Assembly: GCA_019241645.1 (NCBI GenBank)
Contig: JAFAWQ010000029.1
Span: forward strand, 124,001 to 188,000
Length of the DNA stretch: 64,000 nt
Reading direction: 5' to 3'
Source: Alphaproteobacteria bacterium
Lineage (GTDB): Bacteria > Pseudomonadota > Alphaproteobacteria > Micropepsales > Micropepsaceae
Part shown: positions 3,224 through 32,461 of the stretch, piece by piece
Layout: every line of letters begins with the position of its first letter
Position numbering within the stretch: the stretch's first letter is position 1
Program-made: the position numbers and the translations under genes
The notes under the pieces: generated by a model
Databases searched by the model: none
The model's input: the letters and a program-made list of their open reading frames with translations, nothing else
Told to the model about the DNA's origin: nothing

Positions 3224-3538
3224 TTCGCTACTCCCCGTCAGACATTCGTACAGAGAACCTTACTCATAGCCATAGGAGGAGGGCTAGCCGGGCATGCCTT
3301 GCGAAGCCACAATCGTGCTCCGAACTGGTGAGAACAATTGTAGAACTTTCGTTGACTTTGGCCCGTGCAGCTGTTATTTTTTTTGGTCCGCTTCAGGAGG
3401 GCGGAACGGCACCTATGATGAGCGAGAACAGCCGCCAAAACTTCGACATTCACCGTTGCGTCGGGACAACCGCTGGCGCGGGTGCGGGTGCTGTTGTGTC
3501 GATGGGCGACCCCAGCCCAGGGGGGAGGGGGATAGAGG

Positions 3539-3801
3539 CCTTCGTGAAAACGAAGATCAAGATATTGCGGTTTTTTCGCACCAGGCCGACGAGATGTAGC
3601 TGGTGGGTTCCTCCCTCGCCGAGCGGGAGGGGGACCACGCGAAGCGTGGTGGAGGGGGCATTTACCGGCACGTCGCCCCCCTCCCCGCCTGCGGCGGTAC
3701 TCCCCTGCTGCGCGGGTGGAGAGCCAAATCGGTCCGACCGGCAACCCGCTGACCGCATGTCTGCCGGCAGGGGAGAGGGGGGCGATCCTTCGTGAAAACG
3801 A
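3539..3801. repeat. Palindrome-rich block bounded by a 15-bp direct repeat
   Basis: The 606-nt gap 3224-3829 has no convincing gene. Its right part is made of G/C-rich inverted repeats. The 15-mer CCTTCGTGAAAACGA occurs at 3539-3553 and again at 3787-3801. Both copies follow a G-tract module (GGGGGGAGGGGG and GGGGAGAGGGGGG), so the two ends look like copies of one repeat type. Inside are a hairpin at 3634-3650 (ACCACGC/GCGTGGT, 3-nt loop) and an inverted-repeat-bounded unit at 3674-3784. These resemble alphaproteobacterial intergenic palindromic repeats. Confidence 0.7.
3674..3784. repeat. Palindromic repeat unit with imperfect terminal inverted repeats
   Basis: A 111-nt unit starting CGCCCCCCTCCCCGCC (3674-3689) and ending GGCAGGGGAGAGGGGGGCG (3766-3784). 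The ends are imperfect inverted repeats of each other. It lies inside the larger block 3539-3801, directly upstream of nrdJ. It has no transposase and is far too small to be autonomous. The likeliest reading is a REP-like or MITE-like element; a transcription-terminating role is also possible. Confidence 0.55.
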
Positions 3802-15571: not shown

Positions 15572-16762
15572 CTAGTGGAGGCTGCCGAAGGCCTTGATGC
15601 CATTCGGCGTGCCGTTACCGGTGGGGCCGTCATAGCCCTTTTCGCCGGTGCACCAATACTCCGGATCGCATTGGCCGTTGAAGCCCGTCGTCACATCGAA
15701 CAGGTTCTTCGTGTGCGAGTAGATGGTGCTGGCAGCATCAACCGCTCCACCCTTGTTGCCGAAGATGCCGCCGATCAGCGGCGCCGAAACACTTGTGCCG
15801 CCGAAGACTAGCCAGTTCGAGGTGTCCTCACCCGTGGGGCCATATACCGCCACGCCGGTTCCGGGAGATGCAACGGCGGAGACATCGCCGATCATGCGCT
15901 TGGAACATCCGGCGTCCTGCTGCCAGCTCGGCTTTTCAAAGACCTTGCTGCAGCCGCTGCCGGCGCCGCCCCAAACCACTTCCGCCCAGCCGCGCTTGGT
16001 GGTGCCGTCGACGCGAAGGGCCGTACCGCCCACGGCAATCACCTGAGGCATATCCGCCGGTGCCTGTACGCCATAACCGCTATCGCCGGTGCTTGCGGTC
16101 ACGGCCACGCCCGGATGATCGTAGTAGTGCACAAAATCCTTCACCCGCTGCGATTCGCCGCCGCCGTAACTGTTGCTGATGACATGCGCGCCCAACGAAG
16201 CCGCCGTATCAACCGCGATGCCCAAATTCTTGAAGCTGTTGCTCCGCGATTGCATCATATAGATCGTGCAGTTCGGGCACATGGCGCTCACCATGTCCAT
16301 ATCGAGCGCCGATTCCTTCGCCCAACCCAGATCGAATTTCGGGTAATGTCCCTGGACGCCGTTCTGATTCAGTTTCTTGAAGCAGCCATTGTCGGTGGTG
16401 CATGCCGGCAAGCCGAAGTTCGCGCGGTAGACGCCGAGATCCCTTTCGGCGTTCGGATAGCCAAAGGCATCCACGATGGCCACGATGATTGAAGAACTGC
16501 CATTTGTCTTGATGTTATAGGCATCGCGCAATTGGTCCGGGCCGAACCCGGAGACCGGTGCGCCTGCGCTTACAAGTGCCCGGCCTGCCTTGTCCGTAAC
16601 GACATGCGCGTGACAGTGCGCATAGAGGCCAACAATATTGGGACAAACCCTGACATGATAGGTATTGCCGTCCTTAAGAACTGTGGGCTTGGCGCTGGCG
16701 GCCGAAGAAAGGCCGAGAGCAACCGCGGCAGTTAGCAAACCGCCCGCTAAAATCCGCATCAT
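15572..16762 (-). CDS. Secreted S53 (sedolisin-family) serine-carboxyl peptidase
   Basis: 396 residues with a signal peptide ending near SSAASA. The sedolisin residues are visible: E150 and D154 in KESALDMD, the oxyanion aspartate D227 in STGDSGYG, and nucleophile S324 in GGTSVSAP. The calcium-site region is GYDGPTGNGTPNG near the C terminus. Only about 60 residues separate the signal peptide from the catalytic fold, so the usual large pro-kumamolisin activation domain is absent or strongly reduced. Several paired cysteines suggest disulfides. GGAGGAG precedes ATGATG; either Met may start. It is a paralogue of the next gene upstream. Confidence 0.9.
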   Translation of the reverse strand: MMRILAGGLLTAAVALGLSSAASAKPTVLKDGNTYHVRVCPNIVGLYAHCHAHVVTDKAGRALVSAGAPVSGFGPDQLRDAYNIKTNGSSSIIVAIVDAFGYPNAERDLGVYRANFGLPACTTDNGCFKKLNQNGVQGHYPKFDLGWAKESALDMDMVSAMCPNCTIYMMQSRSNSFKNLGIAVDTAASLGAHVISNSYGGGESQRVKDFVHYYDHPGVAVTASTGDSGYGVQAPADMPQVIAVGGTALRVDGTTKRGWAEVVWGGAGSGCSKVFEKPSWQQDAGCSKRMIGDVSAVASPGTGVAVYGPTGEDTSNWLVFGGTSVSAPLIGGIFGNKGGAVDAASTIYSHTKNLFDVTTGFNGQCDPEYWCTGEKGYDGPTGNGTPNGIKAFGSLH

Positions 16763-16880
16763 CTCCTCCGGTGTTCGTGCGAGACAGAAACTTTACTGCG
16801 AATGACATGCAAATTCATCGTCTGGTGAGCAGATGCGGCGCGGCGGAAGGACGCACGGAGAATTTGATGGGTGTCTAAGC

Positions 16881-16911
16881 AAAAGGGCGGGGACTGAGCC
16901 CCGCCCTTTTT
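16881..16911 (-). terminator. Rho-independent terminator downstream of the second S53 peptidase
   Basis: AAAAGGGCGGGG (16881-16892) and CCCCGCCCTTTT (16899-16910) form a perfect 12-bp stem with a 6-nt ACTGAG loop. There are U-rich ends on both strands (TTTTT on plus, TTTT on minus). It starts 17 nt after the minus-strand stop at 16928 and separates the two peptidase genes into different transcripts. Confidence 0.9.
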
Positions 16912-16927
16912 ACAAACGATACCAGAA

Positions 16928-18103
16928 TTAGAACGCGCTTGAGCCGTTCGGCGTGCCCAAGCCTGTCGGGCCGTCATAACCGACGACGCCCGTGCACAGG
17001 TACGAACCGCCGCAGCTGCCATTGCTGCCGGAGGTCACGTCAAACAGCGCGCCGACGTTGTTATAGGGATCCTGGCCGTAGTTCACCGCTCCCCCATTCA
17101 CGCCGTAGACGCCGGCAATCAGCGGTGCTGCCACGCTGGTCCCGCCAAACACCAGCCAGCCGGACCGGCGAGAACTCACGGGTCCATAAACCGCGACGCC
17201 GGTGTTCGGATCGGCTACCGCGGAAACATCCGCGACCGTGCGCCGGGAACAACTGGCGTCGTGTTGCCACGATGGCTTCGCGTACACGCTGCTGCAGCCG
17301 CTGCCGGCACCCGACCACACCGTTTCCGTCCAACCGCGGCTGTTGCTCGCGGTTACGAGGTGTGTCCCGCCGACGGCGGTCACGTGCGGCGAGGACGCTG
17401 GGAATTCCACGCCGTAGCCGGAGTCGCCCGAACTCACGGTGACCGCGATGCCCGGATGGTTGTAGGCGGACTCATACGCCGTCGTACCGGATTCGCCGCC
17501 GCCATAGGAGTTACTGATGGCGTGCGCGCCAACATTTGCCGCTGTGTTCACCGCGGTCGCGAGATTGGAATAGGAGTTCGTGTTGGCTTCGACCAGGTAG
17601 ATCTTGCAGCCGGTGCACATCGCGCTTGCCATATCGAGGTCAAGCGCCGATTCCTGGGCCCAACCGGTATTCTGTGCCGGATAGCTTCCCTGCTGGCCAT
17701 TCTGGTTCAGCTTCTTGAAGCAGCCATTGGCCGTCGTGCATGCAGGCAGGCCGAAGTTCGAGCGATAGACGCCAAGATCAGATTCCGCATTCGTGTAGCC
17801 ATAGGCATCCACGATCGCGACGATGGTCGAAGAACTGCCCGTTCCGGTGACCTTGTAAGCACTGCGCAGACTGGCAGGACTGTAGCCCGACACCGGCGGA
17901 TGCTTGCTTGCGATCGCGAGGCCGCTCGCGTCGGTCACCACATGAGCATGACAGTGGGCAACGTGCCCTACGACCGGCGCGCAGGCCGCGCGGTGAAACG
18001 TGTTGCCGGATTTTAGAACCGGACCAGAAAGCGCGTTCGCGCCGGAAGCAATTCCGAAAACGGTCAGCGCGGACACCAGTCCACCTGTAAGCAGATGACG
18101 CAT
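16928..18103 (-). CDS. Secreted S53 (sedolisin-family) serine-carboxyl peptidase, paralogue
   Basis: 391 residues from MRHLLTGGL; an AAGGAGG site 6-8 nt upstream supports this ATG rather than the one at 18145. The signal peptide ends near GANALSG. Catalytic residues are E151 and D155 (QESALDLD), D227 (SSGDSGYG) and S323 (GGTSVAAP). It aligns end to end with the neighbouring peptidase, sharing for example GVYRxNFGLPACTTxNGCFKK and SNSYGGGES, so the pair arose by tandem duplication. As in its partner, no large pro-domain is seen. A secreted, probably acid-active protease is expected from the family. Confidence 0.9.
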   Translation of the reverse strand: MRHLLTGGLVSALTVFGIASGANALSGPVLKSGNTFHRAACAPVVGHVAHCHAHVVTDASGLAIASKHPPVSGYSPASLRSAYKVTGTGSSSTIVAIVDAYGYTNAESDLGVYRSNFGLPACTTANGCFKKLNQNGQQGSYPAQNTGWAQESALDLDMASAMCTGCKIYLVEANTNSYSNLATAVNTAANVGAHAISNSYGGGESGTTAYESAYNHPGIAVTVSSGDSGYGVEFPASSPHVTAVGGTHLVTASNSRGWTETVWSGAGSGCSSVYAKPSWQHDASCSRRTVADVSAVADPNTGVAVYGPVSSRRSGWLVFGGTSVAAPLIAGVYGVNGGAVNYGQDPYNNVGALFDVTSGSNGSCGGSYLCTGVVGYDGPTGLGTPNGSSAF

Positions 18104-31651: not shown

Positions 31652-32461
31652 GTGAGAGGCGGACACGCCGAACGCACGCGCCGCATGCTCTACGGCCGCC
31701 GCAAGGGGCCGAGACTTTCTGCGCATCAACAATCCCTGCTTGATTGCCTGCTGCCTGAATTCGAACTGAACCTCCGCCCGAATGCCGATCCGCGCAGCGA
31801 TTTTTCCGAATCCGCCGAAGAGGTCTGGCTCGAAGTCGGTTTCGGCGGCGGCGAGCATCTGATCTGGCAAGCCCGACACAACCCAGATATCGGACTCATC
31901 GGCGCCGAGCCGTACGTCAACGGTGTGGTAAAACTGTTGTCGCATATCGAAGCATTGACCCCCACCCGCCCGCTTTCGGCTCGCGACCTCCACCTTTCAG
32001 GGAGAGATGAGGAGGATCGCGTTACGCTTTCCTCCCCCTGCAAGGGGGAGGACGGTCCGCGCAGCGGATCGGGTGGGGGTCATTGGTCGAATATACGCAT
32101 CTATGCGGGCGATGCGCGGGACATTCTCGAGGCTTTGCCGGATGCCAGCCTGGGCCGCGTCTTCATCCTGTTCCCCGATCCTTGGCCAAAGATGCGGCAT
32201 CACAAGCGGCGCTTCATCCAGACGGCCATATTGGACGAACTCGCGCGGGTCATGAAGCCAGGCGCCGAACTGCGCTTCGCCAGCGACAATGCCGGATATG
32301 TGGAATGGACGCTGGAGCGATTAATGGCGCATGAAGCTTTTGCGTGGACGGCCACGCGCGCTTCGGATTGGCAAACCCGCCCGGATGATTGGCCCCCCAC
32401 GCGATACGAAGCGAAAGAGCTGCATGGTAAGCCAACCTTCTTAAGGTTCGTGCGGCGCTGA
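31652..32461 (+). CDS. trmB: tRNA (guanine-N7-)-methyltransferase with an in-frame palindromic insertion
   Basis: 269 residues from a GTG one nt after the metK stop; an internal ATG at 31685 is an alternative. It methylates G46 of tRNA using SAM. SAM motif I is WLEVGFGGGEHL, and the catalytic region is RVFILFPDPWPKMRHHKRR with DARDILEALP before it. Between these, residues about 102-144 (TPTRPLSAR...SGGGH) match nothing in the family. They are encoded by a 127-bp palindromic element (31956-32082). Removing about 42 residues restores the normal TrmB length of about 227. The frame stays open throughout, so the gene is probably expressed. Confidence 0.92.
   Translation: MRGGHAERTRRMLYGRRKGPRLSAHQQSLLDCLLPEFELNLRPNADPRSDFSESAEEVWLEVGFGGGEHLIWQARHNPDIGLIGAEPYVNGVVKLLSHIEALTPTRPLSARDLHLSGRDEEDRVTLSSPCKGEDGPRSGSGGGHWSNIRIYAGDARDILEALPDASLGRVFILFPDPWPKMRHHKRRFIQTAILDELARVMKPGAELRFASDNAGYVEWTLERLMAHEAFAWTATRASDWQTRPDDWPPTRYEAKELHGKPTFLRFVRR
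31956..32082. repeat. Palindromic element with 12-bp perfect terminal inverted repeats, inside trmB
   Basis: TGACCCCCACCC at 31956-31967 is exactly inverted as GGGTGGGGGTCA at 32071-32082. Inside is the perfect palindrome CCTCCCCC-TGCAA-GGGGGAGG (32031-32051), the same core as the palindrome beside pheT. The element encodes no protein of its own but reads through in the trmB frame without a stop. It resembles intergenic alphaproteobacterial repeats that normally lie outside genes. A target-site duplication is not clear. Confidence 0.85.

Follow-up and report, generated by a model that had tools for sequence, protein, structure and literature searches.

The trmB locus and its insert

The DNA analysed here is a stretch of 64,000 nucleotides (the window) in which the gene trmB, encoding a tRNA (guanine-N7-)-methyltransferase, carries a palindromic sequence in frame (Table 1). 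The gene lies between neighbours that we take, from their translations, to be metK and rimP-nusA. Its product matches the Pfam family Methyltransf_4 (E 1.3e-37) and E. coli TrmB in the PDB (3dxx, E 1.7e-17), and an AlphaFold model of the protein aligns with E. coli TrmB 3dxy at a TM score of 0.82 by target length.

Table 1. Features of the window discussed in the text (R1, covariance model of the palindromic unit)
Feature	Position	Strand	Remarks
trmB, tRNA (guanine-N7-)-methyltransferase, host gene of the insert	31685..32461	+	start ATG 31685, or GTG 31652 in the same frame
TrmB loop 1, empty here	31802..31825 (approx.)	+	palindromic inserts or remnants in 12 relatives
In-frame palindromic insert	31956..32082		unit (-), 23-nt spacer, unit (+); residues ~90-132 counted from 31688
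First palindromic unit, degenerate copy, TGACCC end outward	31956..32007	-	R1 39.6 bits, E 3.7e-8; outside the source set of R1
Spacer separating both units	32008..32030		coordinates from the R1 unit matches
Second palindromic unit	32031..32082	+	hairpin 1 CCTCCCCC/GGGGGAGG, hairpin 2, tail GGGTGGGGGTCA; R1 77.1 bits by construction (one of the seven source units of R1)
More distant copy of the palindromic unit	3610..3661	+	R1 24.3 bits, E 2.2e-4
GC-rich 22-nt palindrome directly after the pheT 3' end	26789..26810		matches hairpin 1 only, partially

The insert ends in perfect 12-bp inverted repeats, as an earlier note on this DNA had described: TGACCCCCACCC stands exactly at both ends, and within the 64-kb window it occurs without mismatch at 31956-31967 (+) and 32071-32082 (-) only. 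Such a pair is not rare on its own, given seven 12-bp inverted pairs within 127 bp in the window against 0-6 in 20 Markov simulations, and the significance of the insert therefore comes from its repeat family. The folding energy of the strand is -79.3 kcal/mol (z -5.7), and none of 200 shuffles reached so low a value. The same note treated the 127 bp as one unit. The span is indeed palindromic but not a single unit, since a covariance model built from seven units of this genome, the (+) unit of trmB included (R1), marks two units of about 52 nt and a 23-nt spacer. Likewise, the inner palindrome that was said to recur beside pheT (a gene named from its translation) exists there as a partially matching 22-nt hairpin but not as a full unit. 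An Rfam search of the 64-kb window at gathering score returned one tRNA only and left the palindromic unit without a match.

Across the insert the trmB frame is the sole stop-free frame of the six. By hand count the net gain relative to G043, the nearest insert-free relative read, amounts to 123 nt or 41 codons, which bears out the proposal of about 42 added residues with neither a stop nor a change of frame. In the AlphaFold model of TrmB (run with 40 TrmBs; mean pLDDT 85.9, core mostly at least 90), insert residues 91-130 have block means of 51-66 and lie between the helix 77-90 and the strand 136-139. The structural modelling that had been suggested hence places the insert peptide in a predicted low-confidence loop on an intact TrmB fold. 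No indication of a gained function of the peptide was found in these data, and the element in trmB probably rides along as a passenger tolerated by the enzyme. When filled and empty trmB sites are compared by eye, a CATTG direct repeat is possible, overlapping the ends of the element. Neither transposition nor excision was observed, no clean pair of an empty and a filled site turned up, and a target-site duplication is not established at trmB.

Two further features of the window are recorded here. A GC-rich palindromic sequence is found near position 3520, beside the unit at 3610-3661, and the sequence of that unit also resembles stretches in a DUF559 locus (L365) and in two RsmB loci (L196 and L195). 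In addition, a direct repeat lies in 15587-17896; its two copies, about 1340 bp from each other, have diverged to 71-75% identity and are probably paralogous genes.

A dispersed family of two-hairpin units

With the 127 bp as query, BLAST found eight places in the whole genome at E <= 1.1e-6, that of the query included, the best non-self match in this genome having an E value of 2.9e-14. The covariance model extends this set. At E <= 1 the whole genome holds at least 60 R1 matches, and at E <= 0.0132 at least 42, of which 40 lie outside trmB and seven are the model's own units; these counts are lower bounds because 150 of 1170 candidates were scored. The scores of the seven source units are high by construction, and other palindrome families are under-counted by R1. 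The whole-genome search proposed in the earlier note thus reveals a multicopy repeat, by BLAST and by R1 alike. Among the 42 matches are at least 14 canonical pairs, in which a (+) unit is followed by a (-) unit with hairpin 1 outward. The pair in trmB has the reverse arrangement and is the only such pair among the R1 matches. Hairpin 2 could be compared in seven sequences only, where 98.2% of cells remain paired while the letters change. Nine cells are changed on both sides, a number that none of 500 shuffles equalled, and these changes fall on four pairs, a number reached by 98 of the 500.

Copies occur both between and within genes. Intergenic copies precede, for instance, der and a sucB-like E2 gene. 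In-frame elements were found in the gene of an RsmB/F methyltransferase (rsmB), with Pfam domains across the element or on both sides of it; in an RNase R-like gene, where the insert (about 396-436) falls within the RNB domain (257-622); in the linker of an E2 acyltransferase, between the lipoyl and E3-binding domains; and in an NlpC/P60-like gene, for which the Pfam match is weak (E 0.00023) and below the cut-off. One DUF559 gene has its C-terminus encoded by a unit. The insert is supported as a palindromic, mobile-type repeat lying in frame in trmB.

The NlpC/P60-like gene (L002:1328-2107, minus strand) seemingly contains two in-frame elements of different families, the second palindrome family standing near the N-terminus as judged by eye. 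A separate region, G000:C33:77359-88866 of this genome (L246 and L253-L257), packs five unit pairs into 12 kb near prohead-protease and NlpC/P60 matches, and is perhaps phage-like or gene-transfer-agent-like.

Recurrent inserts in the loops of TrmB and RsmB

TrmB was matched in 90 of the 96 genomes of the family. Six genomes gave no match and four proteins (G050, G057, G086 and G005) were left out, which gives 86 TrmBs; the 67 used in the following counts belong to the genera g1, that of this genome, and g2. At least one TrmB loop carries palindromic inserts or remnants in 16 of these 67, this genome included. Loop 2, the site of the insert described above, has palindromic inserts or hairpin remnants in seven (again including this genome), and loop 1 has inserts or remnants in 12. 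The inserts in loop 2 belong to at least two families as assigned by eye: family B in this genome and G062, and family C in G056, G024, G041 and G007, with a small hairpin in G023. Parsimony, taking gains and losses together, requires seven changes for loop 2 and ten for loop 1, so that the presence of inserts is patchy. G043, the nearest relative on the TrmB tree, has an ordinary short loop, and the alignment with relatives suggested in the earlier note finds the insert absent from it and from most of the TrmBs read. In keeping with that note, the repeat-free relatives read carry no homologous peptide, and the repeat is present elsewhere in the genome.

The picture at RsmB is similar in kind. 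Of 30 loci 22 are readable, and in three of these, belonging to G000 (this genome), G048 and G044, one RsmB loop is occupied by palindromic stretches that differ in kind. At the loop of the G000 insert, G048 has a different palindromic stretch of 126 nt, which folds at -87 kcal/mol, and G044 a 42-nt hairpin. A further RsmB gene, that of G024 (G024:C103:20975-22663), has an apparent in-frame insert of 132 nt between query residues 325 and 327. The earlier note had overlooked the DUF559 link set out below, the in-frame copies in genes other than trmB, the recurrence of inserts at two TrmB loops and the build of the insert from two units.

DUF559 genes between inverted units

The best matches to the unit often stand immediately beside genes of the DUF559 family (PF04480). 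Five genes of this genome match the DUF559 profile and have its conserved catalytic-type residues; across 60 sequences 13 columns are invariant, including D43, F44, E54, D56, G57, H60, D67 and R70. With an AlphaFold model of pLDDT 84.3 as query, Foldseek returned 3hrl (E 4.8e-7), I-Bth0305I (3r3p, 9.4e-6) and Vsr (1vsr, 7.2e-3). The DUF559 fold is hence like that of the Vsr / EDxHD homing endonucleases (I-Bth0305I), of E. coli Vsr and of 3HRL. These proteins are intron-homing or mismatch-repair enzymes, and none of them is known to lie between inverted palindromes.

Thirty DUF559 loci (96 kb) contain 62 unit matches, compared with six in 30 RsmB loci (117 kb), four of which belong to this genome's own locus. 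Reading the flanks by eye, we found most of these DUF559 loci enclosed by inverted units, which fall into several sequence families. A pattern-free test, in which the upstream flank was locally aligned to the reverse complement of the downstream flank, was calibrated on 29 RsmB loci. These gave a control maximum of 22.5, with L195, the locus of this genome that has the insert, left out; the control windows adjoin the matched stretch, whose limits do not always coincide with gene ends. Above this maximum were 72 of 85 high-scoring DUF559 genes and none of 23 low-scoring ones, which act as a built-in negative control. High-scoring means at least 80 bits, with our own profile in the flank, Mantel and tree tests and with Pfam in the co-occurrence analysis; the 85 are those of 87 with usable flanks, and L372, a duplicate of L302, was dropped. 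Some of the 13 genes not above the controls show units by eye, and L337, L358 and L373 do not. The five DUF559 genes of this genome score 22.0-27.5, four of them above 22.5, and R1 units flank the gene at C6:15644-15958 on either side.

Bracketing extends beyond the genus. In a sample of the class, DUF559 occurs in 63 of 192 genomes, and 16 of 29 new loci exceed the control maximum. A sample of the phylum has it in 112 of 299 genomes, and of its 28 new loci those above 22.5 are four of 13 from the same class and seven of 15 from other classes; the remaining 17 have no clear flanks. Distant window pairs at the same phylum-sample loci (28 pairs) scored at most 20.5. The loci of both samples come from among the highest-scoring DUF559 matches and are no random sample; together they indicate that bracketing is widespread, not universal.

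The low-scoring DUF559 group (L374-L396) has no inverted flanks (0 of 23), and its members are frequently the sole DUF559 match in a genome. The group may represent a resident host gene.

Palindrome families follow DUF559 clades

The similarity of near flanks between genomes increases with the identity of the DUF559 proteins (Mantel rho 0.31, the maximum of 300 permutations being 0.10), and flanks 320-520 nt away show no such tracking (rho 0.03). On the DUF559 tree, which is based on an alignment of 108 columns and has many open forks, the palindrome family changes nine times against a shuffled mean of 39.3, and none of 200 shuffles was as low. Taken singly, families A and C require one change each, D three, E four and B six; because of the last three the pairing of family with clade is imperfect. 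The families A-E were assigned by patterns written after the loci had been seen, and 14 of the 87 DUF559 rows fit no pattern and stand outside the label count; the Mantel test is independent of the patterns. The family is present on both flanks in 53 of the 73 classified rows.

Enzyme and repeat also go together across genomes. Over 69 related genomes the number of DUF559 copies correlates with that of units (rho 0.80; 91 copies in 35 genomes by Pfam at 80 bits or more, unit counts being lower bounds with 85 candidates scored per genome). After two units per DUF559 copy are subtracted, rho is 0.64. Units at E <= 1e-3 occur in all 35 genomes with high-scoring DUF559 versus eight of the 34 without. 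A phylogenetically independent test, with five pairs only and of low power, was not significant. The eight genomes that have units without a high-scoring DUF559 (e.g. G065 with 31 and G054 with 26) speak against a strict dependence, a pattern that loss of the enzyme would also give.

Relation to known palindromic repeats

Several known systems share part of this architecture. MITEs go back to known insertion sequences, which have TIRs and produce target duplications. Those of Coxiella burnetii, and the enterobacterial RU repeats, are, in the accessible part of their literature, short non-autonomous inverted-repeat elements sometimes found in coding regions, as are the elements here; target duplication is a feature of MITEs, and none is established here. 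REP/RAYT REPtrons and REPINs come closer, as there too a nuclease gene stands between inverted palindromes, dimers without the gene are scattered, and the palindrome family goes with the enzyme. Repeat-specific REPtrons are described in the available sections of PMC3733652. This genome has both a bracketed enzyme gene and gene-less dimers, with DUF559 replacing RAYT. The enzymes themselves differ, since RAYTs are HUH tyrosine transposases whereas DUF559 is a Vsr-like PD-(D/E)XK nuclease. GTAG REPs are different again: the units here are about 52 nt long with two hairpins and no GTAG tag, and neither GTAG nor CTAC occurs in the seven R1 units.

RPEs and CGTC REPs resemble the present elements as palindromes that lie in frame within essential-type genes, some of which serve RNA modification (PMC3733652, available sections). 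Here the in-frame copies are those in trmB, rsmB, the NlpC/P60-like and RNase R-like genes and the E2 linker. E. litoralis and S. alaskensis are free-living alphaproteobacteria. In-frame REPs from both are already in print in what is accessible of PMC3733652, so that a case outside Rickettsia is not as new as the earlier note supposed and the trmB insert alone is a further case of a known phenomenon. The same portion of that paper reports in-frame REPs in RNA-modification genes and near the same site in related species (Xanthomonas recB), and it describes CGTC REPs as mostly alphaproteobacterial and without a dedicated transposase. Our elements differ in that an associated gene family was found and the CGTC end tag is lacking. 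Neither this tag nor a CCA-like tail is present in the seven R1 units, which start with CCTC, as part of the stem, and end with GTCA, GTCC or GTCG; in the CGTC REP definition, as given in the available text of PMC3733652, CCTC is a variant tag ahead of an AT-led stem. The kinship with Rickettsia RPEs that had been suggested finds no support, as the unit ends bear neither a CGTC nor a GTAG tag. Membership of the RPEs is rejected on the end tag, CGTC being missing from the unit ends.

How the elements may spread

The DUF559 elements are, in our reading, autonomous and REPtron-like, with DUF559 the likely mover and the trmB insert a non-autonomous, REPIN/MITE-like derivative; we put the probability of this at roughly two in three. 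That DUF559 moves the palindromic elements, and by which chemistry, we infer. The family exists in two forms, gene-less dimers of unit, spacer and unit, and longer elements of unit, DUF559 gene and unit. The DUF559 nuclease would recognise the folded ends of its own palindrome family and cut or nick DNA, leading to the spread of its own element and of the gene-less dimers, and it might do so as a transposase, a copy-priming nickase or a homing-type nuclease. The best explanation for the copies kept in genes is a filter, through which an element that falls into a gene would survive only if it preserves the frame and the loop or linker it enters tolerates it.

An alternative that we consider unlikely is that DUF559 and the palindromes form a homing-type or a repair/addiction system, in which the nuclease would act at palindrome-like sites and the element would be copied in during break repair and not transposed. 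The place that Foldseek gives DUF559 beside I-Bth0305I and Vsr is consistent with homing, as are the repeated hits in the same TrmB and RsmB loops. The Caulobacter DUF559 protein VsrA, according to the available text of PMC12907096, is required for the SOS response when the methylase ScmA is absent and is interpreted by its authors as a mismatch-repair nuclease, which favours a repair or addiction role. Against homing stand the copies at many unrelated sites in one genome, and the different families in the same loop point to tolerance rather than to one recognised site.

A somewhat smaller chance still attaches to movement of the palindromes by a RAYT of the IS200/IS605 type, with the DUF559 genes as passengers or as users of the palindromes as landing sites. 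Y1_Tnp proteins do occur in 18 of the 69 genomes of the genus, including the nearest relative G043, and insertion sequences that target REPs are the subject of a paper cited in this literature. However, this genome has no Y1_Tnp match, and the presence of a RAYT is not clearly correlated with the number of units (rho 0.21, p 0.08). Of four Y1_Tnp loci in relatives one is cut by a contig end; the inverted-flank test gives the other three 15.5, 18.5 and 18.5, all less than the control maximum. In the four loci R1 has two weak matches only; they lie in L225, at a distance of more than 600 nt from the gene. Moreover, a passenger DUF559 would not be expected to keep a palindrome family tied to its own protein clade. 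A RAYT as the main mover is rejected on the absence of one from this genome, the unclear correlation and the lack of strong inverted flanks.

It is very improbable that the palindromes lack mobility and regulate DUF559 and other genes at the RNA or DNA level, as terminators for instance. The compensatory changes in hairpin 2 and the several intergenic copies, among them those upstream of the sucB-like E2 gene and of der, would suit this role, but the in-frame copies in five genes and their patchiness are hard to explain without movement. It is scarcely credible that TrmB has here a lineage-specific loop of the ordinary kind, or that the insert stems from an assembly error. While loop lengths vary somewhat among relatives, the DNA of the insert matches genome repeats elsewhere, and one error cannot yield other palindromic families at the same place in relatives.

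Implications

For many of the palindromic repeats of bacteria no mover is known. What makes the present finding interesting is the association of DUF559 with palindromes, which appears in no paper among the literature matches listed (titles and abstract openings, subscription journals being uncovered) nor in the available portions of PMC12907096, PMC5082802, PMC12306157 and PMC3733652. The loops of TrmB and RsmB form a natural experiment, in which different palindromes have entered the same loops in different species, and how mobile DNA turns into a segment of protein can be traced within one genus. Beyond the preferred reading of DUF559 as the mover of its own elements lies a broader one, on which we are evenly divided: DUF559 would represent an unrecognised class of mobilising nucleases. 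Small elements with a single Vsr-like PD-(D/E)XK gene flanked by inverted hairpins would, together with their gene-less dimers, be spread through the Alphaproteobacteria and further classes of the phylum, every DUF559 clade would serve one palindrome family of its own, and new peptides would repeatedly be written into the loops of essential-type proteins. For Vsr-like DUF559 proteins such as Caulobacter VsrA it offers an alternative beside that of a repair enzyme. If it is true, DUF559 may spread many of the REP-like palindromes of alphaproteobacteria that have no known transposase. Nuclease clades that track their flanking palindromes provide a concrete candidate mover for one large set of repeats.
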